A stretch of 64,000 nucleotides of DNA from Isoetes taiwanensis (taxonomy: Eukaryota; Streptophyta; Lycopodiopsida; Isoetales; Isoetaceae): NCBI GenBank assembly GCA_021234155.1, contig JAJEKV010000053.1, positions 7,269,424-7,333,423 on the forward strand, read 5' to 3'. Shown piece after piece: positions 3,999-60,559 of the stretch (positions are counted from its first letter, which is position 1; every line of letters starts with the position of its first letter). A program made the translations under genes and the position numbers. The notes beneath the pieces are model-generated. The model was given only the letters and a program-made list of their open reading frames with translations, had not been told where the DNA came from and made no database searches.

Positions 3999-6089
3999 AG
4001 GCAAATCGCGCTTGGCGCGATTTGCCTTTTGCAAATACGAAAAAGAAAAAATGAGGGAAGAGAATTACCTTTTGTATAAGAAAGTTTTTCCCATGTCATT
4101 CAGGAGTGCGCTTATTTCGGCTAGTTCGGCAGGTGTTGTTGAGCCTCCAGAACCGCGATTTCGGCGGAGAAACAAATTTTATAGAACAACCGATTCCCAA
4201 GATGTCGCGGCCTTCTTGATGAGAACCTTCGGGCCTCTATTGAATGTCGGCCATCTATTATCATAAAATGTATGTCTGGGTTCTCGATGAAGTCCTCCAG
4301 CTTGCTCCAAATGATTACCTTTTTTGTTCTGGTATCGTATGGCACTACATCTGCAGGCATTGGCACCTGCCCTGGATTTTCGATCATGATGTTCAATATC
4401 TCCAAGGAGTGCTGCTTGTCATACCTTCTGCTGATATAAATAGCTTTAGTGGACCTGAAAAGCCTATCCACGTTGACTGGATGGGTGAAGCTCAGGTCCA
4501 GTGGATACTTATCGGCATATTTCTTCAGTTTGCTCATTGCCTCCAACTGCCTGGCCTTGTCATCGTCACTTGTAAGGCCTGCTGTCACTTCTGTAGTTTC
4601 CCTGCCTTTAGAGCTAGCTTCTTCCTTATCCTTCACTGCCTGTAAGTAGACACTGCCCGAGGGCCTCGTGCTAATGGCTCGTCGAACAACTGTAAGCCCC
4701 TCGCATATTCGTTTAGGAGTCAATGGCTCGCCAACTTTCCAGCCAAATTTGAAGAGGTTATCGGCCATGTCGTCTGATCTTAATGCAGTCTCTTTAAAAG
4801 AGCTAGCACTGCATCGATTGATCTTCTTTAGGCTCTTCTTATTTTTTTGGCCCACTTCAACTATCGTCCTGTACTTCGCATGTGATAAGAATTCCCTGCT
4901 TCTTCATTTGATCAGTCTCTCTTACCCTATACATGAATATGAGGTCTGTCTTCCCACCAGTTTTAAAGATCTCCACATACTATTCTGACCCCTCTACAAG
5001 ATCTTCTTCTGGACATGGAGGTTCTACCTGAGCCTTTATTATTCCGGATGTATCTTCTAACGTCAATACATTTGCAAGTCCAGAATAAATAACATCTTAA
5101 TACGTCCTTTGCTTTTTCTGGGCTGAAGAGGTCTCGCCTTGCTTGGTTCTCCTTTTGATTGCCTTTTGTGATCCTGTAAAATTACAGCACATATGCTAAG
5201 TCGAAACATATGCAACAAAAACGCGCTTGGCGCGATTTGAAAGAATACAGAGCAAGTTCATTTACTTAATTGGAGCTAACAAAAACGTGCTTGGCGCGAT
5301 TTCAAAAGAATACAGAGCAAGTTCATTTACTTAAAATGCTCAGGACACAACTAACTATAAAAAATACAACTTAAATTGTCGAATCTACATCTCAAGATAT
5401 AGAAACTAATGTAATGCCTTATTCAACTGCGGCTTTGACACAAATAACTATAAACACCACAACTTAAAGAGTTGAATCTTCATCTGAGGACCCAACTAAC
5501 TATAAAAAACACAACTATCTACTGAATACTTTTTAGCCACACATTAAGCATTTATTTGCATACATTTTTAGGACATATGAACTCAAATATTAGAGGACAC
5601 ATGCTTCTTATCGGATAATAACTCTACTATTACAGAAAAACATCCTAAAAACCAGAAATCAATTACAGAACAAAAACAGATCAATTACCTGAGGCGCTTG
5701 CTGGAATTGTGCTTTCTGCTTGTTCAGAAACCTCCAGGCTTTGCATTTGTGCTTTGGCCTGTCGCCCACCTCTACCTGCGCCTCGGCCGCGGCTGTCAGA
5801 TCCTCTAGACGCCATAGAACTGCAAGTGCGGATAATATGAGACTGGGGTTTTGGTTTAAACTTATATGTATGCGTTTATAATCTAGGCCGTCAGATTTAC
5901 AACCGTAAATTCAAATTCGCGTCCTTTTCAATTATACCGCCTTAATTAACCATCCGTCCCGCTCATTTACAAATTTAAAAGGTGTTTTTCTTTTCAATGC
6001 AATTTCAAGAAAACAAATAATTATTATTTTCAAGAAACGCATATGTGGCAATCTACTACCACCTAATCCACCACCTACTATCAGAGCGC

Positions 6090-9664: not shown

Positions 9665-12600
9665 GTCAATGGCATGCAAAATGCTAAAAAAAAGCCCCCA
9701 ATGATGCTGATCAAGGCAAGGAAAAATCCCCAACTAATGAACATGATGGCCAAGGAAAGGAAAATACCTCAAATGATGTTGATGATGGCAAAGGAAAGGA
9801 AAAGACTCCAAATGATGTTGATGATGGCAAAGGAAAGGAAAAGAGCTCAAATGAAAAAGATGATGCCAAAGGAAAGGAAATTGTACTTTATACTCGGGTC
9901 GATTGGAAAAACAAAAAGGTCAAGAACCCGCATGCATGCAATGAGAGGCAAAGATGGGAGAAGGGATTATTGTTCTAGCAGATCCTATCAATGCAGTGAA
10001 TGATGAAAGATTAGGGGAGGACAGGTTAGGTGTGGCAATCTCAAAATTATATGACAATTGGAAGGAAAAGGGTTCAGGCAAACAAGAATGCCTTGCTTGT
10101 GTGAAGCAACTAGAAGTTCCAACTATTGTTGCATGGCCTAGGGACGATTAAACCTGAGGGGAACTACATGTTTTCTATAGATGTAGAACCATTGTCAATA
10201 ATGTTCACACAGTGTAGCAAGAGGCCACTTCCAACTTTCAAACATTATCCCACCAAAAGATGCAAGTCAGATTATGATTGTTCTCCTGAAGCCCTGATGA
10301 AGGTTATAGGAAGTGAATGTTGTTGGGCCTCCCCAGATTAGAATGTTCACAATAGAAGAGATGGTGGTAGCAAGAGCTACATATCGGAACATAAGTGTGA
10401 TATCGGGGAGGAATTTCATGTACACCATATTTGGCTATGCAATTCGGGATGAAAGATCAAAGAAGAAAAGATTCCCATTGAATGGAAAGTGGATATGTTC
10501 AAAAGCATGGATGGCTATACATGGAATTCCAACCTCTTCTTGGCACAACTGGCAAAAGAGACATGAAAATGGTAGTAAAATTGCATTGCATGGGAACACC
10601 GGCCCGGTAAGGCCTACCTCAAGAACTATAGCCGCAAGGAAATATTTGAAAGATATGTGGATTTCAATGCGAGAAAAAACATGCCGCATAAGAGTAAGAA
10701 GGATGAACAGGGTAGAGTTATTGTTGAAAAGAGATTGCCATCCCATTGTACCCAGAAGAGCATATTAGAGGAAATAAATGCATTGCTTCGGGAACTTGGA
10801 GTGGCCTCTATATCCCAGCCCAGTTTTAGTAGGCTATGGAATAAGCATTTCAAGCATGTGACCATAGCAACTTCAAACAACTTTGCCAAGTGCAATTTAT
10901 GTGCTAAGCTGAAGGAGACACTAGATAAGACTGTGCAACCAAGTCTAAGGGCAAAGATAAGGGAACATATGAAGGACCATATGACCGATCAACTATCATG
11001 TAGATCAACTTATTCGATGTGGAGGACCTTATCTGCAATGGAACCTAATAACTATCTATGTATTATACATGATAAAATGGACCAACAGAAGACTTGTCTT
11101 CCACAATTCAAGTACATTCCTAAGTCATGTGGAAGATCATACCCTTTGCAGATTTCAATGACTGGGGCAATATTGCATGGGCAGTCTCAGACCTATTATG
11201 GCCATTTCAGTTTAGAGTTGTGGAGTGATGGTCCAGATTTTCACATTGGGAGTCCCGGGGGATTCACCTTTCATTAGCATATAACCCATGAGAGTTCAAC
11301 GGAGGGGTGTTTTTTTAGCCATTTGCGTACGTATACTTAGGGGTTAGGGGTGTTTTTAGGCACTGATCTAGAGCAATATCTATACATATAGGGGTCAAAT
11401 TGCGTTTTAAAGATGTGTATACAAGGGGGGTTTTTTGCTACCCTCCGAACGCAGATGCCATACCCCCTTTATATATAAGTGCATCCCCCGGGTTGGGAGT
11501 ATCATGAGGTGTTTAAGAAACTATGAGAGGGTTACAATGGTCACCTACAGGATCCTACTAATGAACATGTTGGAGCTTCAACATCTCGTGCTAAACCTCG
11601 ATATCTGCCCAGAAAGCTCCTCTTGCAACTAGATAATTGTGCTGGTCAAAATAAGAACAGGTGGATGTTTTCTTTCCTATCCTACTTAACAGCTGTGGGT
11701 ATTTTTGAAAGAGTCAATTTGGGGTTCCTAATGCCCGGACATACTCATGAGGACGTGGATGCATTGTTTGGAAAATATAATCATGTATTGAGACAGCAGA
11801 CAGTTACCAACTTTCCCAGGCTATTGGAAATATTTCATGGATGTACAAATCCATCTCCTATAAAGTGCCTGATTGGAAGAGTTTTGTGGATGGTTATGCT
11901 CTCGACATGGAAGGTCATTCTAGACCTCTTCAATTCACTTTTTGGGTGAGAGAAGGGATTCCAATCATGCAATGGAAAATGAGACCTTCAGAGGAGAAGT
12001 GGAGAGGTGGGCCAGAAATTTGGCACAGGGATGCAAATGGCAAGCCTATGATACCTCCTGGTCAACCAAAAGCTCTAAAACCAACTGAAGAAGTCAAGCA
12101 ATTGGGATTGACTAAGGATGGCATCAATGACTACATCAAGCATTGGCAAACTAATTCAGATGAGACTAATCGTGCATTGATAGATTATTGGAAGAAGGTG
12201 ATCAACTTGTTGGATGAGGTAGACACATCCTCAGAAGAGCTGAAAGAAGGGTGGTTCCCTAAAAGTAAGTGGAAAACATTAGCTGGTGCTGATGAAGATG
12301 ATGGTACCATTAGTAGCATTGTGAAGGCATATGCTCCTCCTCAATCTGATAAACACTATGTTGGTCCTAAGAAGGATAGGCCAAAATATCTAGGCATGGA
12401 TTGTTATGAACCTTCTACTGACGTGGAGTGCCACCAATTTGTAGTAGTAAAACCAGCTGATCTAGAGACCTATCCAGTGTGGTTGGGATACACTATCTCG
12501 GATATTTACAAAGAAGAAGGTGATGTTAACTTCAATAAGGTGCGCGTGGAATGGTGGTGTCCAGTACATCAGTTGAGTAATGTCACCGATAAAGAAAGAT

Positions 12601-12722
12601 ATTCAGATTGTTGGACAAAGAGGTGGACAAAAACTATTCCTAGTAAAACAGCGAGAGTTACAATACCTCAGGATGTAAGGAATAAGGTTCTCATATCCTT
12701 GGGGATGCTGGTGGAAAAATGA
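9665..12722 (+). pseudogene. DDE-transposase-like gene (DUF7869 type), interrupted
   Basis: The N-terminal part (9700-9880) is an acidic ~33-nt tandem repeat (NDVDDGKGKEK units). Next come a segment containing CLACVKQLEVPTIVAWPRD, HGNTGP then RPTSRTIAARKY, a Cys-containing segment (FAKCNLCAKL), HDKMDQQK and MTGAILHGQ. After a MITE the reading resumes with QLDNCAGQNKN and PGHTHEDVDALFGKYN. The C-terminal part (11841-12722) is intact, with FVVVKPADLETYPVWLGY and VRVEWWCP, recalling the small beta-barrel tail of these proteins. Acidic residues in HDKMDQ, LDNC and HEDVD fit an RNase-H-like DDE core. Besides the MITE, several frame changes are needed, so this copy is dead. Terminal inverted repeats were not found. 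The family name is recalled, not searched. Confidence 0.6.
11254..11492. mobile_element. 239-bp hAT-like MITE with 8-bp target duplication
   Basis: The ends CCCGGGGGATTCAC and, inverted, CCCGGGGGATGCAC match at 13 of 14 positions. The element is flanked by perfect direct TTGGGAGT at 11246-11253 and 11493-11500. An 8-bp duplication is typical of hAT elements. Taking out the MITE and one duplication joins GPDFHIGS to IMRCLRNYERV in a single frame, so it landed inside the transposase gene. Confidence 0.9.
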
Positions 12723-19522: not shown

Positions 19523-20211
19523 AGTGGATCTCATTCCATTCCCACTTTTTTTTGGAACCCTGTTATTTTACACGAAAAGGATGAGGGAAACTTTTAAAAC
19601 CGCATTATTGCTTTAGAAGATGCCGTGTGAAAAAAATGTTAAGGAAAATTACGTGGTCTACTTTTCTCGGTTAGCGAGTCGAGAAGATAAAGAGCACAAC
19701 TAAAACCAATGAAAATGCTATCTCTCTGTAAACAAAGTGCTGATCTGCCCTAAATTTTTATTCATAAATAATTTCATTACATTGTATTTTACAATGGTTG
19801 AAGATACCATGAACGTCGGGCTGACACAAATATTACATCATCTTCGCACACAGACCACCTACTGGGAACAGCATACAGAGCAAGGTCTGAGGTGTTCCAA
19901 GTCACAAGAGCAACTTGAAGAGAATAGAAATCTGAACACGCTAGCCTGACCAATGCATGTCAACAACCTCTTCTCGTCCTCTTTCCTCAATGAACAGGCC
20001 TTTCCATGGCTCTCGATCATGTCCTTTCTGTTCGTGATCTGTGCCGGGAAAGGCAAAATCAAGTTAATGCAAGTGATGCTACGGACAATACAAATAAGAA
20101 AACAACCAATTCTAAGGTCCACTTCTGAAGATTGTAGGTCTGAGGCCCTTTCTCGACTCTCTGAGGTCGCGAGTCGAGAAATGTAGCTTAGATCCAAAAA
20201 AAAAAAAAAAA

Positions 20212-21907
20212 AAAACCTTTAAAAACCTGTACTGTCCAACAGTCCAGATCTATTACCTAAGTACAGTCTTTGCAAGAAAGTACCAAGGTACAATTGGCAG
20301 CCCAAGACTTAAATCAGGTATACTCTAAGCCAAGGCCATGTTATGGAATCCAAATATGCCAAATGCCAATATATTAAATACCTTTTCCAAAAAATACATA
20401 TTTAATTATCTTCTAAGAAGATCCAAAATAAGATTTACCTTAGATTTCAGCAACATCAATACATATATTCATGCTATTTTTCTTACAGCAGAATTTGACA
20501 ATAAATAATGCCTAAGTTGTCAAAATATCATAAGATCTTGTAGTATTGTCTTCAAGCATTTAGCCAAATTGACCATCCTTATCCAATAGCTTCATATAGA
20601 ATACATAGACAAGTAGCAAGGAAGCCTGTTACCTGCAGTAGAACCATAGGTAAGTTAGCCAAATATGGGTAAAAACCTAAGCTACTAGCAGGTGTCATGG
20701 GCTTCCTTGAGGTTATCCCCCATCACCTTGCTATTATTCAATTGAAAACATCATCCTACATTAACTAGACATCCTAAACCCTGATAACATAATTTGCCAA
20801 TGCCTTTGTTACCCTTTCTCAGATCTGGAATGCCCGAAATCTTCAATGTCCCTATAAACTAACAATTGCATATTCTGTTCTATATGAATTCAAGTTAGAT
20901 CTAGATCAGCAATAATGTAATTCTATAACCAGTGCAGATCTACAAAACTCGTACAAATCTTCTAAAATTGTGATAGTCAGCTGCTGTTATAAATCTACCC
21001 AACTTGCTTCTTAATAGTAAGATTAAACACTTTTCATAATGCTCACAACTTATCCCGATATCCTGCATTTATCCATTAGCTCTAAATTCTGAAATAGACA
21101 AGCACATTTATCCCCCGGATACATCGATCTGGACCCTTTCAAACTTATGAATTAACAAAATATGTATTCAAACCTTAGATTGACGCGGTACGGTGGTGCA
21201 ATCTCCATCTTGTGTATCTCTTTCGATTCTTCATTTGCCATATGCTTATTGCTCCTGGCTCCATCTCCACAATTGTAAGCCATAGGATTTTCTTCTACCA
21301 AATTTGCTGGTCCATCACTTTGTGCATTGCTTTTCTCCACTACATTGGCTGCTCCTTCATCAAAGTTACTACTGATCTTTTGCTTATCAAGAGTAATCTT
21401 TGCCCCTTCAACTGAGAACTCCTGAATTGAAAAATCTTCTTAACACTACTCTCTTTCTTTTCTTCTGCCATTCTTTTCCTAGTGGCCATGTTAAGATCCC
21501 CCTTCTTTCTTGTCATGGCTAAGTCTGGGAGCAGCCTAAGGCCGCTTGCAAATCCTTGTATTCTTTTTGCTGTGCTCTTCCTTATAAGCACATCAAACCC
21601 TAGAAGGATGTACCTATTACCGTCATGTTTTGGGGCCATCCCATCTTCACTAAGCATTGGTCGTGGGCATGTCCTTACCCGATGCCAGCCATATCTACCG
21701 GTCTCCACATGCTCGTCCACATTCGCAATCTCCAACAGTATGCCCTAAAAATCGACATCTCCAAAACTACTGTATATTGTTCACCTTTATTATTTTATGT
21801 AAGTTCCCCAATTACAACCTTACATCATATAACATCTTATTTTTATTTTCTACTATAATGACCCTTATCCCATCACATGCCATGGTCCAAATAGTAACAT
21901 TATCTTA
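20212..21907 (-). repeat. Downstream copy of the 1.7-kb direct repeat
   Basis: Matches 26064-27758 almost base for base in the same orientation. The few differences are clustered in short stretches. It ends on the outer side in an A-run next to a palindrome array. Confidence 0.9.
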
Positions 21908-22051
21908 TAATAAAAAACCCTGCCTCCTTCCGTAGGTCGGGTGGCCAAGATATGCTAACAAATAGAATGCAAGGTATCAACAAGGAGAGTAGGGCCTTGT
22001 TGTACCATCAAGGCCCTACCCCTCCTATATTGCTCTACTCATTCATTGTAT

Positions 22052-24130
22052 TTATGGGAATCTATTCTCCAGCATTCCCTTAAGAAATCTGATCATGTCA
22101 TGTATGTTATATAGTATACCTGGATACATCTCCTGTTGTAGAGTATTCAGCACCATATTGGATATTTTAATTCTGCCAAACCCATTAGAAATAAAGGCCT
22201 CAATTAGTTCACATATATCAGTAGCAGCATTGAATGCATCAGAATGTGCATATACATATGGAAGTATTTGTGAAATTATAACCCTGGAGGCTTGTCCATA
22301 TGGCCTGCAACTTTCTGCACTAATGAATTTGTTAACTTTAAAGGGCAATTTCTTCCTTTTGTCATACCTAGTCATTAAAAATATCCCTCTGCTTTTGTCA
22401 GTCACCTTAATGGATATATTCAGAAAATTGCATTCAATGCCACAAGGAGTAACCCCATCGTTGCCATGTCCATATATTGTTTCATCTTTTATGCTTAGGT
22501 ACGTAAGGTTGTAGATTGCAAACTCACTTTCTTCATTAAAGAATTCCCTGATATCTCCTGCATTTATAATATTCAAATCATCAATGTACCTGGCTGCATT
22601 TTGAAACCTGTAAATGTCTTTCATTCTTCCATGGTAGGCCAGTTTTAGAACAAATCTTAGTTCAAACCATGCTAAATAGAGGTTGCACCATGCTGGACTG
22701 CATGCAAACCCCATAGGAATACCCCTGACTTGTTTCCATATGTCTTGTCCCATTTGTAAATAACAGTTGCTTAACAGCCATGCATTCATATTTTTAAAGT
22801 TAGCTCTAGAAATTAGCCTCCAGCTAATGAACTCTTTGTCTTTGCCATTCCTGGCCCACTTGACTAGTGTTTTTCCACCTTTATTCTTGATCAGTAAATC
22901 AAAGCAGGTATTTTCCTCCATCATATGGGTCCATACCATATCAGCTATTTCATTAGTTACTTCAATAATTCCCTCATCTCCAAATATGGGAATGTTTTCA
23001 TAACATTTTGTTATGTCGGCAGAAAATACATCATAGATACGGTTGGGTAGATTTAAAGTAACATCATAGGCTGAGTTCACGAGCCAACATGCATTAATTT
23101 TCTTGGGGTTCCAAAATTTGTATTTGGCTGTCATTTTATAGCATATCTCTGGCCATACCTCAATAAAGCTATTTAATATGCTTGTCACTAAGGTAGCAAT
23201 ATCTGTATACAATATATTGAAGGCGTTGGTCAGCCACCTGTATTCTCCTTTGTGTGCCTTGAATGTGGCCATCAAGTATGGTAAGTTTTTATATTGAGTC
23301 TGCCCTTCCCCAATGAGAGAGGAAATATCCTGCTGACATTTATCCTTAATGGCCTTAGGTGAGTCTGAACTTTTCTGAAAATCATGACTTGAGAGCCTGA
23401 TTCTTGCCATTTCTTCCATGTGTTTAGGGCAAATGAAGGCAGCGTTATTAGCAGCCTTGTCCAGCCCTGCAACATACAGATTGTCATTTATCCAGGTAAT
23501 ATTCTTTATTACCTCCTTATCTAACCACAAAAATTTCCTTTGTGGTAGCTGCCTTTTAAAGTCCACAATTTCTGCATATGCAATCTTTTGTAGTAATAAA
23601 CAAATATTCTGAATGTCTTCCTCTGTGAGATCCAGCAGATCATACTTATGGACCAAGAAAAACTGTTGGCATAATGCTTCAAATTCTTCCATAAATTGTT
23701 GGATACTAAAGCTGTGATCAGGTATATGGTTTAGGCCATATGCAAATGCATTTCTTAATTTTTGACTGTGTATGATCTCCAGATTAGTGGTACGTATGTG
23801 TCCAATCTCGGGATCTATGAATCTTTTGAGATTCGGATTATTACATGGGCATTTGTTAGGAACCCCACTAGCAAAAACCCTGTATGGCTTATAAACCTTG
23901 TCCCTAATTTGCTCAATATATTTCCATGCAAATGTGGTGTTAGCAACCAACATTTCACCCCTTTCTTGAAAAATCTCATAAAGCACAGTTTGAAAGATAT
24001 TTCTGATAGAGAATTTATCCAGGGCTTTGGAAAGAAACTTCATATGTACTACCTTTTTGTCTTCTTCCATCTTATCAGAGCATAAATGCCTATTCTTGTT
24101 AATATCCATTGATATGCTTCTGCTCTTCAA
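22052..24130 (-). CDS. Reverse transcriptase, Penelope-like, no endonuclease seen
   Basis: A 692-residue frame. An N-terminal ~230 residues precede the fingers (GLDKAANNAAFIC, like the PADKxxNxVVVC of related RTs; LPYLMATFKAHKGEYRW). Motif A is FSADITKCYENIP, motif B is GIPMGFACSPAWCNLYLAWFE, motif C is RYIDDLNIIN with the catalytic DD. Then come ECNFLNISI and TRYDKRKKLPFKV, typical of this RT group. No GIY-YIG domain follows, so it resembles the endonuclease-lacking Penelope-like class (Athena/Coprina) or a relative. Expected role: copying the element's RNA, possibly primed from free 3' ends. Exact subclass needs a phylogeny. Confidence 0.75.
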   Translation of the reverse strand: MKSRSISMDINKNRHLCSDKMEEDKKVVHMKFLSKALDKFSIRNIFQTVLYEIFQERGEMLVANTTFAWKYIEQIRDKVYKPYRVFASGVPNKCPCNNPNLKRFIDPEIGHIRTTNLEIIHSQKLRNAFAYGLNHIPDHSFSIQQFMEEFEALCQQFFLVHKYDLLDLTEEDIQNICLLLQKIAYAEIVDFKRQLPQRKFLWLDKEVIKNITWINDNLYVAGLDKAANNAAFICPKHMEEMARIRLSSHDFQKSSDSPKAIKDKCQQDISSLIGEGQTQYKNLPYLMATFKAHKGEYRWLTNAFNILYTDIATLVTSILNSFIEVWPEICYKMTAKYKFWNPKKINACWLVNSAYDVTLNLPNRIYDVFSADITKCYENIPIFGDEGIIEVTNEIADMVWTHMMEENTCFDLLIKNKGGKTLVKWARNGKDKEFISWRLISRANFKNMNAWLLSNCYLQMGQDIWKQVRGIPMGFACSPAWCNLYLAWFELRFVLKLAYHGRMKDIYRFQNAARYIDDLNIINAGDIREFFNEESEFAIYNLTYLSIKDETIYGHGNDGVTPCGIECNFLNISIKVTDKSRGIFLMTRYDKRKKLPFKVNKFISAESCRPYGQASRVIISQILPYVYAHSDAFNAATDICELIEAFISNGFGRIKISNMVLNTLQQEMYPGILYNIHDMIRFLKGMLENRFP

Positions 24131-24345
24131 ACTCTGAACCTACAGAAATACTGTAAGTCAGAATGTAAATAAATTTACTAAAGACTCATTTATTCGAAAA
24201 CTAGATATATGTATTAATCAAAAATTGTTTTTTGGCCAAATGGCTACAGACATGATATATGTCTTAGTTACAACTCATATGAAATATGTAGTAAAAACTG
24301 GTAAATTATGTCAGGTGACTATCTGGCTGACCATATGTCAAACGC

Positions 24346-25935
24346 CTAGATAGATTCCTCTACATAATCCAAAATTTTAGGAGTGCTGTCCCCAAGAGAG
24401 ATTTCCTTGCTGCCTCCTTTGGTTATGTTGTTCTCATCATTGTGTTTCATGTTATTGCAAATAGCCATTGTAACAGTGCTGGTGCTATTAACCTTTTTTG
24501 GATCCATAGTAATTCTGGGTGGCAGCTTGGGAGAGATTTTACTGCCAGATATTGACCTCTGTGTATACCTGCCAACATTAGATTTGTCCCAGAAAGCTTT
24601 TTTGTTGGCAGAATTGCAATCTTTCAGAAATTTGAGAGGCTTGATCATTTTTTCGGCTACATCTGCCATTTTGTTGTTTCCAAACATCATCTTTAGGTTG
24701 CTGTCAGGATTTTTCGCATATGCAAGAGTCATATTGACCATGTTTTCCCTAACCTCCAGATATGAGACATAAGCCAGTACAGCAGGTCTTAATACATTGG
24801 TCAATAGCTTTGATAAAATTACCATTCTGAGCATAGGTGATGCTCCTAGATGTATCAGATCCATGTGGTTGATCAGATACCATATTCCCTGATCAAACCA
24901 GATAATCCCACAATCACATTTGTCTTCTGCATTTTTCTTGTGTGTGAATTTATTTTTTTCACACGGGCATCTGAAGTATGGGCAATGGGTCCTCCATATC
25001 CTCTTTAGGAAATAATCATTCCTTTCAATGTTTGGAAAGGCCATGTGACCTTTCTGACTTACTACTGCCTGCCCACTTTTAATACATACTTGTCCAAAAA
25101 ATTCCATATTGAAAGGCAACATGGTATCCAGTGTGTCTAATGTTTTCTCCAACTTATGAGCTGCTATCTTAGCAGCCTTAATATCTTCAATTGTAATAGC
25201 TGCAAGTGCCATCCATGTCTCAAGATCAATAGGAGCTAGAGCCCCGAAGTTTTGGCTTCTCCATATTGCATGTTCTTGTATTGCAGCACAGCTTTCCACT
25301 GTTTGTTCAATTATAACTGGAAAACAAGTGGAATTGGATAATGTAAGTTCAGGAACAGTATCACCATTACTGCTATCAAATTCTGCTGTCAGGCTATTGA
25401 TTATAGGGCATTCTCTTTTGTAATTGGTATAGCCAAGATCTTCTTCAGTGAGGTCCAAATCAGAAAAAAGACAATCCTGTATATTTACTGCAGTATTGAC
25501 TGAAATCTCGTTGCTATTGGTCTGCTCCTTTTCAAATGATAGAGGTTTAATGTCATTTGCTTTTTCCAAAGCCATGATTCCTGTAACAAATTTGACAGCT
25601 GCCTCATCTTCTTGACATGTTCTTTTATATATAATGTTCTCCATATCATTGTAAAGGGCATTCAGAATGTCTTTGCTCTTGGTATATTCAAAATTGACTT
25701 TCTTCAACTGCTGGAATATCTTGAACCATCCACTAAATCCGAGATATGACACTGGAGAAAGATTCTTATCACTCATGTTTACCTCTTTAAACATGATAAA
25801 GGAGTGGATATCTTTACTTCTTATGCATCCAATTATGGCCTGCACCGCATAATTCGGGCTGATAATATTGCACTTATCGTACTCCAATAGTAATAATTCC
25901 TTGATCCATTGATTATATATATCAGCATCTTCCAT
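24346..25935 (-). CDS. 529-aa ORF with Cys/His cluster, upstream of the RT
   Basis: A long open frame 215 bp upstream of the RT on the same strand. The N-terminal half is acidic and helical (MEDADIYNQWIKELLLLEYD). In the second half lies CPYFRCPCEKNKF ... DKCDCGIIWFDQGIWYLINHMDLIHLG, a cluster of Cys and His residues that could bind zinc. The C-terminal tail is basic and Ser/Thr-rich. No known domain is recognised. By position it is likely a nucleic-acid-binding accessory protein of the retroelement. The intervening region has no clear splice pair, so it is probably a separate product. Confidence 0.6.
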   Translation of the reverse strand: MEDADIYNQWIKELLLLEYDKCNIISPNYAVQAIIGCIRSKDIHSFIMFKEVNMSDKNLSPVSYLGFSGWFKIFQQLKKVNFEYTKSKDILNALYNDMENIIYKRTCQEDEAAVKFVTGIMALEKANDIKPLSFEKEQTNSNEISVNTAVNIQDCLFSDLDLTEEDLGYTNYKRECPIINSLTAEFDSSNGDTVPELTLSNSTCFPVIIEQTVESCAAIQEHAIWRSQNFGALAPIDLETWMALAAITIEDIKAAKIAAHKLEKTLDTLDTMLPFNMEFFGQVCIKSGQAVVSQKGHMAFPNIERNDYFLKRIWRTHCPYFRCPCEKNKFTHKKNAEDKCDCGIIWFDQGIWYLINHMDLIHLGASPMLRMVILSKLLTNVLRPAVLAYVSYLEVRENMVNMTLAYAKNPDSNLKMMFGNNKMADVAEKMIKPLKFLKDCNSANKKAFWDKSNVGRYTQRSISGSKISPKLPPRITMDPKKVNSTSTVTMAICNNMKHNDENNITKGGSKEISLGDSTPKILDYVEESI

Positions 25936-26063
25936 ATCCTAAAAGAGAAAGCAATACTGCCATTTAGTATTATGAAATATAATAATAATAATAATAATAA
26001 TACCTGATCATGTAGGATTCCAGAACAAGGTAAATGGTAAAACCAAATAACTGAATTTAGGGA

Positions 26064-27752
26064 AAAAAACCTTTAAAAACCTGTACTGTCCAACAGTCCA
26101 GATCTATTACCTAAGTACAGTCTTTGCAAGAAAGTACCAAGGTACAATTGGCAGCCCAAGACTTAAATCAGGTATACTCTAAGCCAAGGCCATGTTATGG
26201 AATCCAAATATGCCAAATGCCAATATATTAAATACCTTTTCCAAAAAATACATATTTAATTATCTTCTAAGAAGATCCAAAATAAGATTTACCTTAGATT
26301 TCAGCAACATCAATACATATATTCATGCTATTTTTCTTACAGCAGAATTTGACAATAAATAATGCCTAAGTTGTCAAAATATCATAAGATCTTGTAGTAT
26401 TGTCTTCAAGCATTTAGCCAAATTGACCATCCTTATCCAATAGCTTCATATAGAATACATAGACAAGTAGCAAGGAAGCCTGTTACCTGCAGTAGAACCA
26501 TAGGTAAGTTAGCCAAATATGGGTAAAAACCTAAGCTACTAGCAGGTGTCATGGGCTTCCTTGAGGTTATCCCCCATCACCTTGCTATTATTCAATTGAA
26601 AACATCATCCTACATTAACTAGACATCCTAAACCCTGATAACATAATTTGCCAATGCCTTTGTTACCCTTTCTCAGATCTGGAATGCCCGAAATCTTCAA
26701 TGTCCCTATAAACTAACAATTGCATATTCTGTTCTATATGAATTCAAGTTAGATCTAGATCAGCAATAATGTAATTCTATAACCAGTGCAGATCTACAAA
26801 ACTCGTACAAATCTTCTAAAATTGTGATAGTCAGCTGCTGTTATAAATCTACCCAACTTGCTTCTTAATAGTAAGATTAAACACTTTTCATAATGCTCAC
26901 AACTTATCCCGATATCCTGCATTTATCCATTAGCTCTAAATTCTGAAATAGACAAGCACATTTATCCCCCAGATACATCAGATCTGGACCCTTTCAAACT
27001 TATGAATTAACAAAATATGTATTCAAACCTTAGATTGACGTGCAGCTGGTGCAATCTCCACTGCTGTGTATCTGCTCGATTCTTCATTTGCCATATGCTT
27101 ATTGCTCCTGGCTCCATCTCCACAATTGTAAGCCATAGGATTTTCTTCTACCAAATTTGCTGGTCCATCACTTTGTGCATTGCTTTTCTCCACTACATTG
27201 GCTGCTCCTTCATCAAAGTTACTACTGATCTTTTGCTTATCAGTAGCACTGCTGCCCTTCACTGCAGAACTCCTGAATTGAAAAATCTTCTTAACACTAC
27301 TCTCTTTCTTTTCTTCTGCCATTCTTTTCCTAGTGGCCATGTTAAGATCCCCCTTCTTTCTTGTCATGGCTAAGTCTGGGAGCAGCCTAAGGCCGCTTGC
27401 AAATGCTGTATTCTTTTTTGCTGTGCTCTTCCTTATAAGCACATCAAACCCTAGAAGGATGTACCTATTACCGTCATGTTTTGGGGCCATCCCATCTTCA
27501 CTAAGCATTGGTCGTGGGCATGTCCTTACCCGATGCCAGCCATATCTACCGGTCTCCACATGCTCGTCCACATTCGCAATCTCCAACAGTATGCCCTAAA
27601 AATCGACATCTCCAAAACTACTGTATATTGTTCACCTTTATTATTTTATGTAAGTTCCCCAATTACAACCTTACATCATATAACATCTTATTTTTATTTT
27701 CTACTATAATGACCCTTATCCCATCACATGCCATGGTCCAAATAGTAACATT

Positions 27753-27758
<6 letters not shown>
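26064..27758 (-). repeat. Upstream copy of the 1.7-kb direct repeat
   Basis: Same-orientation partner of 20212-21907. On the outer side it ends in a ~27-base A-run on the plus strand. It carries the small ORF at 27023-27586. Confidence 0.9.
27023..27586 (-). CDS. Small ORF in the direct repeat of the retroelement
   Basis: 187 residues, beginning MEIANVDEHVETGRYGWHRV. It contains a segment rich in Arg/Pro/Gly (RTCPRPMLSEDGMAPKHDGN), then a very basic stretch (RKRMAEEKKESSVKK) and an acidic/Asn-rich tail. It is the first ORF of the element in sense orientation. No family is recognised. The matching ORF in the other repeat is not open over its full length. Confidence 0.5.
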   Translation of the reverse strand: MEIANVDEHVETGRYGWHRVRTCPRPMLSEDGMAPKHDGNRYILLGFDVLIRKSTAKKNTAFASGLRLLPDLAMTRKKGDLNMATRKRMAEEKKESSVKKIFQFRSSAVKGSSATDKQKISSNFDEGAANVVEKSNAQSDGPANLVEENPMAYNCGDGARSNKHMANEESSRYTAVEIAPAARQSKV

Positions 27759-27786
<28 letters not shown>

Positions 27787-28125
27787 TTTATCCAGTTTTT
27801 TGAGGGCCTTTCACGACAAGGCTCCTCCGATGGCCTCTCTCGAACGCAGGTCTCTGGGCCAATTCTGTGGAAAAAGGCAGGTCTGTAAGACTTTTCTCGA
27901 CTCGCGAGTTGAGAATAGAATAGCCCCTCTAATGGCCTTTCTCAACTCCGAGTCGAGAAACGTAGCTCAGTGCAAAAAAAAAACTTTTTTTTTTCCTTTT
28001 TTTTTAACTAGGAAAAAAAAAGTTTTTTGAGGGCCTTTCTCGTCGAGAAAGACCCTCAAGGCCCCGAGTCGAGAAAGGCAGCTCAGAGTGAAAAACGCAA
28101 GTCTGAGAGCCTTTCTCGACTCGCA

Positions 28126-31100
28126 ATCTAAACCAATATAAACCTAGGCATTAAACCTATGAAAGATATACATTAAAAATATGTAAATCTATGTAATATA
28201 CCTATGAAAGCACATTAAAATGATTAAACGAATGTAAACTGTGCATTAAACCTATTAGACCTATGCATTAAATCTATTAATATGTAAACCTTACATTGTG
28301 TTAGGAACTATAGAGGATGACCATGTGCATCAAATAGTACTTGCCCCCATTTTGTGTCTTAAACCTTCAAAATGGGTTAAACAAGGTGTAAAGTATATCA
28401 TGATCTTTGAAAAGTTAAATTTTTACCTTAGAATAAAAATATATGCCTAGAAAACGTGCACCATGGCAATATAATGTTTAACGTGTAAACATAGTAGCGC
28501 ACACATAAAAAGAGAATTGGGGACGTATAAATAAACGTCAAAATATAATCCTATTGTAGCATTTATTTTACACTTTTTTTTCAACGTATTTTTTTATCCC
28601 GCTTTTTTCTAATACCCCGCCTTTTTTCCCCGCCCATGCTTGAAATTTAAAATTTGGTACATACCTTTGAGAAGATCCTTTGTACCACTTGGACTCTTTG
28701 TTTCCAGAAGAAGATCCCATAGCCATAGCTCCCACCGGAATTGACCCGCAACGAAAAACTTCACAGCTATGGAGAGTCGAGATCCAAAAATGCAGAGCAA
28801 AGGACAGAAAGAAGGAGGCAGATGAAAGAATGCAGATGAAAAGGATCCGGCAGATTCGTCCATTCTTCTCGGATTTCCAAGCATTTCTGAACCTAGCATG
28901 CATACTCTCCTCAAATCTGATAAATTCAGCCTGCCATAGGCCCGATTTTCATTGATCCAATCCTTCACAAGCTTTTAAATTCTCATCCAAGCACTTTCGA
29001 CCTGCCACAAGACCGATTTGCACAAAAAGCCGCACGTGTGAGATGATGGTTCGGTCTCCCTGTTTCTGTATCAAAGGTTTTGGAGATGGCACAATGTTTT
29101 AGGTTGGTTATGGCCATATGGTAGCACACAATTGCTAATCTACTCATAGACATGCCATCGCTGCAATAAGCAAAACACGGCAATAAATACTGGATCCCAA
29201 ATGTTCGTGATATAACATCAGCCTGACATGGCATGTTGTTAATTAGACAGTCCTCTTCATTGGATCTCATGCGTCCAATGATGTCTGTCACATAGAGCCA
29301 ATTTTTATGGTAGATATACCCATTGAAATAAAGACGTAGAATTCCTCATTTATCATATCAGCATAGGTATATGCATTCAATGAAAAAATTTAAGTACCTT
29401 TTTGCAACCGAAACATTCGATCATTGAGATCGGTACCTGAGTACAATCAAGATGGGACCATATTTAGGTTTTGGAGCATCAACATTGTAGCATTGATATG
29501 GACAACGTGCATAAAGATTCATGCAGCTATAAAGTGGCTAGACAGAAATGAAATAGGTTTTATGATAATGCAACTGTATGCAATCTCAGCCATGTTTTGG
29601 CATCCCAAATGCCTTAAAATACTAATGCCACCATGAGTGAACTTTGTGAGCTGATAACTAATCCTCTTCAAATCCAAAGATGAGCTGGCCAGACATTTAT
29701 TGCAGCAGAGCATAAGGCCTTAGTAATGTGGCCCAGTAGGTACAGTAATAGAGGTCAGTTTTTACATAGTGAAATTGTTTTTGTTCATCTTTTCTTCAAA
29801 TTGTCTTTGTTGGTTTTGAGTACCTCCAAATTCCTTTATTTCTCAGTTCCATTTTCATAATTATGAAGACCACTAACCATGCCTTATTGTTTAGGCTTTG
29901 AAAGATGAATACTGTAGCAAGACATATCTATTCATCCTTGGCTTGTGAAATGTGGGCCAACGACACATACCTATATCTTTCCCATATTTTCAATCATTGG
30001 CCACGTCTTTGCTTTCTGAAATATCATAACATGCATCAGTTGGCAAATACACTGGAATTAGCTCATGCTAATAGTCATTTGATGCAAATCAACCACCACA
30101 TATGTCTGCTGCAAATTGACAGAGCTTACTGTTACACTGCCACAAGTATATGATCTCCCATGAAAAAGGAATTTCAGAATCATTATATAGAAAAAAAACT
30201 ACACATGATGCAGAAATGTCCTCTCGTAAATTCTTCCTCCAACGTATACCTTTAGCATGGTCTGCTCACACACTTTCTGAATCCTCAGCAAAGTCAAATG
30301 TTGTATGGGTGCAAATGGATACACATAATCTTTATTCCACTTTGACATGCCTATCAGTATGTCTATCATGTTATTTGATATTCCTCTTGATCAACATTTT
30401 AAAAAAGCAACCAACATCCTCAAGCTAACAAAAAGACAAACAGGCCATTCTGTGGCTAACAATGTGTCGTCAAGAACCTCTACCAGAATGATTTTTCAAT
30501 GTGATAAGAACATATAGTTGCAAGTCCAACTCTCCAATATTTGCATAATGCTAATGTACAGGATCGCAAAGTTTAGTACCAACATAATTGCAAAGTGCAG
30601 TACTGAATCAATTTTAGAAGCTCAACTCCAAGCTTTGAATATCTATCAACATTCTTTTCTAGAGAACAGTGAACTACCTTAATATCAAATAATATCAGAG
30701 AGGTCAGTAAAAAACTGTTTCCACATGCTTAGATGTGTCAATTTGGATTCAAATCTTAGAATTAGACCTAGCAACAACTCCAGTCTTTGAGGATTACAAA
30801 TAGTGGGTAATATACTTCCCTTCCCTCTAGTGCTCTGTTGTGTTCTATACAGATACCATAACTACAAGGAATCTCTAAAACACCAACACAATCATGCACT
30901 AACATAACCTGCCAATTCCTCCAAAGATGCAGATTGAAGATCTTACCAATTGTAAAAGGAACAAAGATAGGAAGATAGAGAGCCATATTTGGCATTCCTT
31001 TCTGAAGTCATAATATCAGCCCAACTAAATAGTCTCACAATGGAAAATTTTCCAAAACTTATGGTGCACTACTCACATTAACTAGAACAAAAAGAGATAG

Positions 31101-34117: not shown

Positions 34118-34891
34118 TCAGATACTCAAACCCCCATTCAATCTAACAACTTGTCCATTAAGCCACTCACCTTCATCACTCACAGCATACAGAACAAATT
34201 CTGCAACATCCTTAGGTTCTCCTAATCTTCCAAGAGGGGTAGCATCAATATTAGCCTGAATGATGGCATCACTCTTTCCTGCAAAATACAGCTCTGTTGC
34301 TACAGGACCTGGAGCTACACAATTAGCAGTAATTCCCGTTCCTTTAAGTTCTTTTGCCAAGACCTTGGTCATGGCCTCCACACTTGCTTTGGTAGCCACA
34401 TAAGAGCCATAGCCAGGAGGCAGACTAACCAGAGCACTGGTTGAAACATTCAAAATCCTTCCCCCTTTACCTCTCACAATTCTCCTTGCAGCTTCCCGAG
34501 ATACCAAAAATGCACCTCTTGAATTCACATTAGAAATCTCATCCCAGTCTTCTATGCTTGTATCTTGAATTCTAGGGTAGTGAGCATGAAGCATACCTGC
34601 GCTGTGGACCACGATATGAATTTCCTTTCCGAAATGTTGCTCTGTTCCGTCGAAAAGCGCCAGAACATCTGATTCTTTGCTAACATCTGCCGCCATAGCC
34701 AGCGCAGAACCGTCGCCATTAAGGGCCTCTATTTCTGAAACAACTTCAGCTGCTTTGGACGCGTTGCCTTGGTAACTTACTACCACCCTGGCGCCATGGA
34801 GGGCAAGCGTAAGGGCGATTTCCCGACCGATGCCTCTGGATGCGCCTGTAACAATTGCTACTCGTCCATCAAGTTTCTTTCCACTCGCCAT
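34118..34891 (-). CDS. Short-chain dehydrogenase/reductase, classical type, intact
   Basis: A single-exon 257-residue protein, the usual length for classical SDRs. TGASRGIG at residues 15-22 binds the cofactor. HSAG (96-99) replaces the usual NNAG. The catalytic set is N123, Ser in NVSTS (150-152), Y164 and K168 (YVATK). APGPVATE follows, then the C-terminal LNGQVVRLNGG. It resembles plant NADPH-dependent aldehyde reductase-like proteins, so an NADP(H)-linked carbonyl reduction in cytosol or plastid is likely; no transit peptide is evident. The start is the ATG of MASGKK, as in its paralogue at 44323 (about 93% identical). A decayed third copy lies just downstream. Confidence 0.92.
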   Translation of the reverse strand: MASGKKLDGRVAIVTGASRGIGREIALTLALHGARVVVSYQGNASKAAEVVSEIEALNGDGSALAMAADVSKESDVLALFDGTEQHFGKEIHIVVHSAGMLHAHYPRIQDTSIEDWDEISNVNSRGAFLVSREAARRIVRGKGGRILNVSTSALVSLPPGYGSYVATKASVEAMTKVLAKELKGTGITANCVAPGPVATELYFAGKSDAIIQANIDATPLGRLGEPKDVAEFVLYAVSDEGEWLNGQVVRLNGGLSI

Positions 34892-35029
34892 AGCCGCTTT
34901 GAATTGAATTGGGTTTTTTCAGAACTATATACCTTTTTCACATCAAGGTTGAAAAAGACCCACAAGTATGGATGGCCTGCCCTGCACACTGCTAATTTCG
35001 GTCGCCATGGCTACAAGTCTTAAGCTTCC

Positions 35030-44322: not shown

Positions 44323-45096
44323 TCAGATACTCCAACCCCCATTCAATCTGACGACTTGTCCATTAAGCCACTCACCTTCATCACTCACAGCATACAGAAC
44401 AAATTCTGCAACATCCTTAGGTTCTCCTAATCTTCCAAGAGGGGTAGCATCAATAGCAGCCTGAATGAGGGAATCACTCCTGCCTGCAAAATACATGTCT
44501 GTTGCTACAGGGCCAGGAGCTACACAATTAGCAGTAATTCCAGTTCCTTTAAGTTCTTTTGCCAAGACCTTGGTCATGGCCTCCACACTTGCTTTGGTAG
44601 CCACATAAGAGCCATAGCCAGGAGGCAGACTAACCAGAGCACTGGTTGAAACGTTCACAATCCTTCCCCCTTTACCTCTCACAATTCTTCTTGCAGCTTC
44701 CCGAGATACCAGAAATGCACCTCTTGAATTCACATTAAAAATCTCATCCCAGTCTTCTATGCTTGTATCTTCAATTTTCGGGTAGTGGGAATGAAGCATA
44801 CCTGCGCTGTGGACCACAATATGGACTTCCTTTCCGAAATGTTGCTGGGTTCCGTCAAAAAGCGCCAAAACATCTGATTCTTTGCTAACATCTGCCGCCA
44901 TAGCCAGGGCAAAACTATCGCCATTAAGGGCTTCTATTTCTGAAACAACTTCCGCTGCTTTGGATGCATTGCCTTGGTAGCTCACTACAACTCTGGCACC
45001 ATGGCGAGCAAGTGTAAGGGCGATTTCCCGACCGATGCCTCTGGATGCGCCTGTAACAACTGCTACTCGTCCATCAAGTTTCCTTCCACTTGCCAT
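44323..45096 (-). CDS. Short-chain dehydrogenase/reductase, second intact copy
   Basis: A single-exon 257-residue paralogue of the gene at 34118, differing at roughly 19 positions. All functional residues are kept: TGASRGIG (15-22), N123, the NVSTS serines, and Y164/K168 in YVATK. Changes include L31R near the cofactor fold and a W near the C-terminus (NGGWSI). Upstream flanks are also similar, including the AACTGGGTT-like leader and ATAAATATACCTTTTTCACA, so the duplication took its promoter region. It likely reduces carbonyl compounds with NADPH, as for the first copy; substrate unknown. Confidence 0.92.
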   Translation of the reverse strand: MASGRKLDGRVAVVTGASRGIGREIALTLARHGARVVVSYQGNASKAAEVVSEIEALNGDSFALAMAADVSKESDVLALFDGTQQHFGKEVHIVVHSAGMLHSHYPKIEDTSIEDWDEIFNVNSRGAFLVSREAARRIVRGKGGRIVNVSTSALVSLPPGYGSYVATKASVEAMTKVLAKELKGTGITANCVAPGPVATDMYFAGRSDSLIQAAIDATPLGRLGEPKDVAEFVLYAVSDEGEWLNGQVVRLNGGWSI

Positions 45097-45645
45097 AGCC
45101 GCTTTAAATTGAACTGGGTTCCTTCAGGCTCAGGATAGTCTTACGTTTCTTCAGAGCTATAAATATACCTTTTTCACAACAAAGCCAGTGAAACTTCCTA
45201 CAAACTAAAAACACGCCTACCCTTTTGGTTTGGGACTTGCATGTCTCATTCTCCACCATTCACTGAAAGGCTTAAAACAACCGGACTTATTTGTTTACAC
45301 CCTTACACATGCATTTTAACTATCTGGACAATTTATCATGTTAAGAACCAAAAACTTATCGTGTTGCATAAACAATAATCAACTAATGATCAGTCTAACT
45401 AAGTTGTTTCTAGTCAAGATATCCTCAGGCATGTGGTTGCACATGTAAACAATGCCAATACTTTGACAGCCATATGCACATGACTTGCAACAATTCAGAC
45501 AGTTTAGAGAACACATGATTATTTTACCAAAAATTTGTTATTTCCATCTTTCACATGTTGAAGATGCACATTTTCTGACATAGCTCCTTTGCATGATATC
45601 CTGCTTGAGCTATTTATTTCTCCAAATGAAAGAATGTGTTACCAG

Positions 45646-59440: not shown

Positions 59441-60559
59441 AGATTTTTGAGAAATGAGGCAAGAACTAAAACAAGTAAAAAGGGTAAGGGCGTACTTGGA
59501 GCAGAGCTGTGGAGTAGAGGTAGGGCCTGGAGTCGGAGCTCTGGCTCCTTCGCAAGAAAAAAACAAGAACAAAAAAGCAAAAGCTGAACCTGCCAGAATG
59601 TGCCTGCCATAGAGAAATGTGAAGCTTGGAGCCGAGCTCTGCATCTTCGCCGGACTTTTTTCTGCTCCTCCTTCCCTAAAGCTGCCGTCAAGGATTTTGT
59701 GTAAAAATGGATCGCTAACTCCTTCTCGAACCACTATATTAGCACCTGAACTACATTATTTTGCTGGAGACTGGTCAGATGTGCATCTTGTGTTATCACA
59801 AGTAGGGCCTGACGAATGTGGGAAGATAGAAAATGAAAGCAGTGAGTTTAACTTTAGCTTTGCCGACAGAGATTCCTCTCGTCCATCCACTCCAACTACA
59901 CCACCTACAGATGTAGACAGTATGCATGACAGAAGCTCTGATGTCCCAAGCCATCGAAGAATTAGATCGAGGAAGAATTAGATACTGTTTACTCTTCATC
60001 TTCACTGCCCTGAAACCCTAAACCCATCAGAACCCTAAAGTCGAACCCTAAATTCATTACAACCCTAAAGTCGAACCCTAAAGTTGAACCATTGCAAAAC
60101 TATAGATAAAATGCCATTCAAATATGAGAATCCAGTGTGCACTCTAGATATACTGATTAGTATGCCTCGTGGAATACGCCCATGAAATCATATAAAAACC
60201 ATGCCAAAAAGCGTATAAAATCACAAAAAAAACCCCATGTTATAATGCTACATATTATTAAAACTTGCTTGAATGTGAATAACACCCTTGGGTATTCTCC
60301 CACGTTTACCTCCACATAGATTACTAATCTTTCTAATGAGTCTTGGCGTTGTTCCCATTTCCATGTATGAGAATAACAGTTATTATATGGGATTGGAAGT
60401 GATTTACAATTTCGCCAACTACACACTCTATTAAATATATTCCAAGACAACCATGTCAAGCACCCTCCACCTCTTAGCATTCCATTCATCTTCATTACAT
60501 TGCGCCTGCGAAATATAACCCTAGCCCCATATGTACATGACTAACTCTAATCCTACACA

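Follow-up and report, generated by a model that had tools for sequence, protein, structure and literature searches.

The window analyzed here, a 64-kb stretch of Isoetes taiwanensis DNA, contains on its minus strand a 7.6-kb retroelement, in which a 1.7-kb direct repeat (R) is followed by an open reading frame (ORF1), a second frame with a reverse transcriptase (ORF2; RT) and another copy of R. In our reading, to which as a whole we assign a probability of about 0.7, it is one member of a multi-copy Penelope-like family, inserted recently into the genome of a lycophyte that is most likely Isoetes taiwanensis. A preliminary description, made from the window alone, had placed the element in a plant, which the lycophyte host bears out, and its motifs and coordinates were recovered when the ORFs and repeats were sought again. 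The long direct repeats that it had reported, delimited by repeat comparison, lie at 26063-27757 (R5, the 5' copy, resembling a long terminal repeat, LTR) and 20209-21917 (R3, the 3' copy); they are 98.2% identical over 1,713 columns, with a start-to-start distance of 5,851 to 5,855. Between them, ORF1 (24349-25938, 530 aa) has the Cys/His cluster that had been noted upstream of the RT, and ORF2 (22055-24139, 695 aa) has the motifs RYIDDL, GIPMGFACSP and GLDKAANN; both frames are open. The further ORF seen inside the repeat runs from stop to stop at 27023-27595 (190 aa) and is split in the left repeat copy.

The REVERSE TRANSCRIPTASE of ORF2 was recognized by Pfam as RVT_1, weakly in the window protein (1.1e-4); this was the sole family found at 0.1, and it was matched by all 9 ORF2 copies (best 4.7e-7). 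For comparison we used eight gypsy ORFs, the TERT of the same genome and a Penelope-type fragment in a mussel-symbiont metagenome-assembled genome (MAG), which is presumably host DNA. ORF2 matched the mussel fragment with an E value of 2e-7 and TERT with 4.8e-5, in each case over 61 aa, whereas the best of the gypsy ORFs gave a non-significant 0.14. A profile of the family ranked them in the same way (2.1e-9, 5.4e-6 and 0.077, respectively), and hhalign aligned ORF2 to TERT over 60 columns with a probability of 44 and an E value of 2.3e-4. With a putative Naiad-like consensus, BLASTP gave 29% identity (9e-34) and hhalign a probability of 99.5; the weight was placed on the real sequences. These comparisons show the predicted RT to be of Penelope/TERT type and not of LTR type, in agreement with the earlier assignment; grouping with LTR, DIRS or LINE clades had been named beforehand as the outcome that would speak against it, and no significant match to the gypsy RTs was found. 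ORF2 also has a CxC motif, CPC at residues 98-100, in all 8 alignment rows that cover the site. Among prokaryote contigs, two mussel-symbiont MAG pieces were found, of which L002 was informative and L003 had only a few matching residues. Viral contigs yielded no relative, L001 being a chance match to a phage. The TERT gene is at L056 (C1056), and a second Telomerase_RBD match is at L057 (C1062).

A search of 1,658,258,908 bases in 1,110 contigs found at least 57 matches to the internal part of the element and at least 52 to R; these are lower bounds, as 40 were scored in each case from 1,099 (internal) and 900 (R) first-look candidates. Relative to the window copy, the internal part was between 94% and 66% identical. 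Twenty ten-kb stretches were taken for comparison, and the R-ORF1-ORF2-R layout was present in 12 of them (L012, L013, L015, L016, L017, L018, L019, L025, L030, L031, C952 and C922). C952 has the order R-internal-R-internal-R, a tandem copy, while C1018 (L036) has a single R flanked by T24 on either side, so solo repeats occur. The array at L021-L024 (C922:231000-270999) is better explained as a 12-kb segmental tandem duplication, which includes 3.3 kb of non-element DNA, than as tandem retrotransposition. No inverted copies of R were found in 17 stretches, 15 of them searched with their own R and 2 with the window R. Both ORF1 and ORF2 are kept in the genomic copies, and the ratio of nonsynonymous to synonymous substitution rates (dN/dS) ranged from 0.06 to 0.13 for the pairs of sequences with a computable dS (13 of 27), a rough value for the 9 pairs in which dS exceeded 1.2; the other 14 pairs, each involving L026 or L030, yielded no dS. 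This conservation and the low dN/dS place the frames beyond chance and show apparent purifying selection on both predicted proteins.

The three reading frames of the preliminary description exist, and ORF1 and ORF2 are conserved in the copies, but the three look like exons of a single spliced gene rather than independent ORFs. The predicted first coding exon in R5 (27029-27367) starts with MTRKKGDLNMATRKR and comprises 113 codons, ending in phase 0 at a donor, AAG|GTTTG; its copy in R3, located at 21174-21516 by R5/R3 alignment, has a broken frame. The ATG of this exon occupies the same column in all 16 R rows (from 15 stretches, the window giving two), and in all 10 rows with an open frame it is followed by the donor in phase 0. 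In 14/14 aligned copies ORF1 starts directly after an acceptor-like TAG, which in most cases follows a pyrimidine-rich run; ORF2 starts directly after TAG in 13/14 (the exception is L018; TGTAG in the window). No ATG is conserved among the aligned copies at either start. The acceptors of both ORFs share this phase 0, which allows the R exon to be joined in frame to either. The ORF1 stop codon is at an identical place in all 14 copies, which makes alternative splicing a more likely source of ORF2 than read-through. The boundaries thus compared show conserved splice-site-like sequences in matching phase, and the element gene probably bears introns and starts inside the repeat. A donor-like CAGGTA also precedes ORF1 in 14/14 copies.

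The ends of R, for which a copy search had been proposed, are the same in independent copies. Immediately before R3 stands a conserved stretch of the CCTACGG-AGGAGGCAGG type (21918-21943), present with small variants in 17/17 rows, which may form the purine-rich arm of a hairpin (B); R itself opens with T5 to T7, usually followed by ATTAT, and ends in AAAGG plus about T7. In the window the outer junctions are A-runs on the plus strand, equivalent on the sense strand to T28 at the 5' side (27758-27785) and T20 at the 3' side (20196-20215). A T-run of 8 or more was found at the 3' outer end in 15/15 copies (interrupted by A in L030). At the 5' outer end a clean T-run of at least 11 occurs in 9/14 (the window copy WIN, L013, L015, L016, L019, L030, L031, C952 and C922) and a short or interrupted one in 3/14 (L017, L018 and L025); L014 (T28) and the solo R in L036 (T24) provide two further 5' T-runs. 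As background, the 215,003 bases of copy stretches contain 37 T-runs of 10 or more, junctions included. When the flanks of the window copy were joined, they aligned with a neighboring target copy that has a plain A-run, with a score of 110 versus a maximum of 52.5 in 200 shuffles. Hence, for the copies compared, the putative outer ends are shown to lie mostly in A/T tracts, and the repeat ends to be constant in an LTR-like manner. Beside the insertion, at 27861-28140, there is a foldback-rich repeat (CTCGACTCG/CGAGTCGAG) that resembles an empty target. Some flanking words recur among insertions, GTCCRGACTAGTTATGTCCGG before the T-run (5' flanks of L025 and L031) and GAGGGYAAG after it (3' flanks of L017, L018, L030 and C922), which places some target tracts within repeated sequences, perhaps poly(A) tails of retroposons.

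In 7 of 9 two-R elements (WIN, L012, L015, L016, L025, L030 and L031) R5 and R3 were each other's best matches, with 93.7 to 98.7% identity versus 73.0 to 94.3% to the next element, the identities being sums over BLAST pieces and matches of 900 columns or less being left unranked. Each insertion therefore probably makes R anew, in the manner of LTR elements and pseudo-LTRs (pLTRs). The repeats of the copies lack TG..CA LTR ends, and by inspection no tRNA primer-binding site beginning with TGG is present at the end of R5, in keeping with the pseudo-LTR view taken earlier; the constancy of the R ends, however, is more LTR-like than that view assumed.

Recent activity had been proposed from the near-identity of the repeats, and the insertion is indeed probably recent. 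Apart from the outer ends, R5 and R3 differ in five short patches, all at CAG/CTG sites, at about 27,000-27,420 of the right copy (corresponding to 21170-21570), and similar garbling at CAGGTAACAG is seen in several other copies (L016, L019, L031, L027 and L052). This pattern suggests that nanopore consensus errors occur systematically at methylated CHG sites of the assembly. The Isoetes taiwanensis genome was read on nanopore 9.4.1 flow cells and polished with Illumina data (PMC8566536), so the differences look like consensus errors. The true divergence of R5 and R3 may accordingly be near zero.

Two predicted RNA structures were shown to covary. The first is a 141-nt block within R, located by fold and covariation at 20600-20740 in R3 and, 5,854 further on, at 26454-26594 in R5. 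In 24 rows chosen from 43 distinct ones, 98.9% of 528 cells were paired, 53 cells were changed on both sides versus 20.6 in shuffles, and covariation was 0.281 versus 0.131, far above slid versions of the alignment; further pair types did not exceed shuffles. The selection of rows favors pairing, since those left out include near-duplicates and rows with a differently read 3' arm: pairing was 94.1% for all 43 rows and 87.8% for the 19 left out, and the two rows of L017 were only 55 and 60% paired. The second structure is an 8-bp hairpin with a TNT loop directly downstream of R5 (26001-26053), ending in the conserved CAGGTA. It was 96.9% paired in 12 distinct rows, with covariation of 0.473 versus 0.163; double-sided pair changes were not above shuffles. 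Candidate hairpins between the RT stop and R3, including a strong one at 21976-22034 (hairpin A), are conserved in 17 rows. No structure in the element reaches an Rfam gathering score. Matches to mir-3202, at the place of hairpin A, to SNORD77 and to others fell below their gathering scores and were rejected.

The absence of a GIY-YIG endonuclease, noted in the preliminary description for the RT, extends to the whole element as far as Pfam can tell: no match was found in the R ORF (one sequence), in 9 ORF1 members or in 9 ORF2 members, whether for the N-terminal domain or, in ORF2, for the C-terminal one of canonical endonuclease-containing (EN+) Penelope-like elements (PLEs). Likewise, none of the three ORFs matched an integrase, protease or RNase H in Pfam. 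ORF1 members had only weak, sub-threshold matches (for example, DUF4528 at 0.029, Metallothio_PEC at 0.033 and Sen15 at 0.095). Profile searches of PDB with ORF1 and ORF2 gave nothing at E values up to 1, PHROGs gave weak matches only (0.063 and 0.28), and a phmmer match to an immunoglobulin receptor chain (0.025) was weak and taken as chance. No hammerhead was recognized by Rfam, and the hammerhead core pattern occurred 4 times in the window versus 6.2 expected, with no occurrence inside the element.

Several observations count against our reading or parts of it. The RVT_1 score of the window ORF2, 22.4 bits, is below the cut-off of 29.6, and ORF2 also matches a PADLOC model of a prokaryotic, CRISPR-associated RT (9.4e-5). 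ORF1 could hide an endonuclease too divergent for Pfam; AlphaFold models were poor, with a mean predicted local distance difference test (pLDDT) score of 34 without the family alignment and 36 with it. A 5' T-run is not shown for L012, whose junction aligned elsewhere, or for L020, which had no match. The R copies of L019 are slightly closer to the R of L020 than to each other, and those of L018 are closer to the R of L017; these two exceptions are cases of near relatives or segmental duplicates. With regard to splicing, a frameshift breaks the exon-1 frame before the donor in 6/16 R rows, and L017 and L018 have an additional AAG|GTTTG in phase 0 at nt 138. In L015 and L016, only 22-27 nt separate CAGGTA from the ORF1 acceptor, too little for an intron, and it was rejected as the donor for that acceptor. 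A stretch of 47 or 48 nt between two splice-like sites after R5, of which CAGGTA is the donor-like one, would, as an exon, break the phase. The close CAGGTA and this stretch leave the exact splicing uncertain.

The features described above can be combined into a possible replication cycle. Transcription would start in R5, and the R exon would be spliced to either ORF1 or ORF2, yielding two proteins. Unspliced RNA would serve as the template, since the intervening stretches are present in the aligned genomic copies. At its 3' end R has oligo-U (..AAAGGUUUUUUU), which could pair with the 3' terminus of a genomic A-tract that has been nicked or broken, so that the RT starts the cDNA there. At its 5' end R again has oligo-U (UUUUUUAUUAU), which could serve to join the other end, the A-rich cDNA end pairing with the same tract. 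Tandem or template-switching synthesis on a single template might yield the two R copies.

The Chlamys and Naiad PLEs, reportedly described by Craig et al. in 2021, are defined by an N-terminal GIY-YIG endonuclease and by a CxC motif between the N-terminal part and the RT, with an insertion-in-fingers domain as a further feature. A hammerhead ribozyme is present in the pLTR of many PLEs and is not known from Chlamys and Naiad. The Isoetes element shares with these groups a Penelope/TERT-type RT preceded by CxC, pseudo-LTRs, copies in tandem, insertion into simple-sequence tracts, lack of a hammerhead and presence in the green lineage. It differs in having no recognizable N-terminal GIY-YIG, in possessing ORF1 and a coding exon inside a repeat of 1.7-2.1 kb, and in its constant repeat ends and apparently intron-bearing gene. 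The CxC motif, tract targeting and missing hammerhead fit Chlamys/Naiad better than Athena and suggest an endonuclease-lacking relative of the former; we do not claim membership, because the missing endonuclease is the main difference. The element may yet be an ordinary Chlamys-type PLE whose N-terminal GIY-YIG, on another exon or too divergent for recognition, cuts A/T tracts. Such elements are reported from spike mosses, and the same three features, together with the tandem copy in C952, agree with this explanation. Chlamys PLEs are reported also from Ectocarpus (PMC12477816). Pfam, on the other hand, finds no GIY-YIG in any of the frames searched, and we regard an ordinary Chlamys-type element as a possibility clearly short of even odds. 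Somewhat more tentative still is the proposal that the Isoetes family is a distinct PLE lineage that has lost its endonuclease, inserts within chromosomes by pairing of oligo-U tracts at both repeat ends with oligo-A tracts of the genome, has LTR-like repeats without LTR enzymes, makes two proteins from one spliced gene started in the repeat, and uses a conserved RNA structure in place of the hammerhead in template processing.

The preliminary description had likened the element to Athena and proposed that copies be checked for nearby telomere repeats. An Athena/Coprina-type, telomere-associated PLE without endonuclease that has spread inside chromosomes would account for the lack of a detectable endonuclease, and PLEs of this kind are reported from Selaginella, another lycophyte (PMC12477314). 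The window also contains a telomere-like array at about 60014-60082 (AACCCTAAACCC..., 2.3 copies), 32 kb from the element. However, in 19 sequences scanned for telomere-repeat pairs, (TTTAGGG)2 did not occur (single heptamers uncounted), no copy examined adjoined telomere repeats, all 20 copy stretches are at least 176 kb from contig ends, and the junctions lie in T-runs. The analogy to Athena is not supported, and we consider this origin improbable. The least likely explanation, a true LTR retrotransposon with a captured or evolved Penelope-like RT, primed by tRNA and a polypurine tract, draws on the constant R ends, the homogenized R5 and R3 and the purine-rich GGAGGCAGG exactly at the start of R3, but it is opposed by the lack of LTR enzymes recognizable by Pfam, of TG..CA ends and of a visible primer-binding site, and by the ability of the purine tract, which is present in 17/17 rows, to pair as a hairpin arm.

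Among other PLEs, canonical Penelope has direct repeats that include the coding start, palindromes near the 5' end of the pLTR and a tolerance of introns; its described pLTR measures 218 bp (PMC3846280). The Isoetes element resembles it in the repeats, palindromes and introns, but its repeats are about 8 times longer than that pLTR, ORF2 has no C-terminal GIY-YIG by Pfam, and the stretches searched have no inverted R. Direct pseudo-LTR repeats and tandem units, a mark of the order, are present here; pLTRs are usually 5'-truncated (PMC8969392), and the ends in Isoetes are more constant. Dryad of conifers, likewise a Penelope-like element of a land plant, is of the endonuclease-containing type and is attributed to transfer between arthropods and conifers (PMC9370799), unlike the Isoetes element with no recognizable endonuclease. 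Endonuclease-deficient PLEs are described as mostly limited to chromosome ends, since they use exposed 3' ends as primers (PMC3846280). The preferred reading, of a Penelope-like family with no recognizable endonuclease that occupies A/T tracts away from contig ends, offers a testable alternative, base-pairing priming at homopolymer tracts. The family also combines repeats resembling LTRs with membership of a group that has no LTR enzymes, and its coding unit, apparently with introns, begins within the repeat. Listings of open-licence papers showed no description of the family, and the paper on the Isoetes genome does not use the word Penelope in its main text (PMC8566536).

Elsewhere in the window, two long ORFs at 10579-12722 have no Pfam match and perhaps belong to another mobile element. 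Two similar intronless ORFs for short-chain dehydrogenases, at 34118-34918 and 44323-45123, apparently represent a local duplication.

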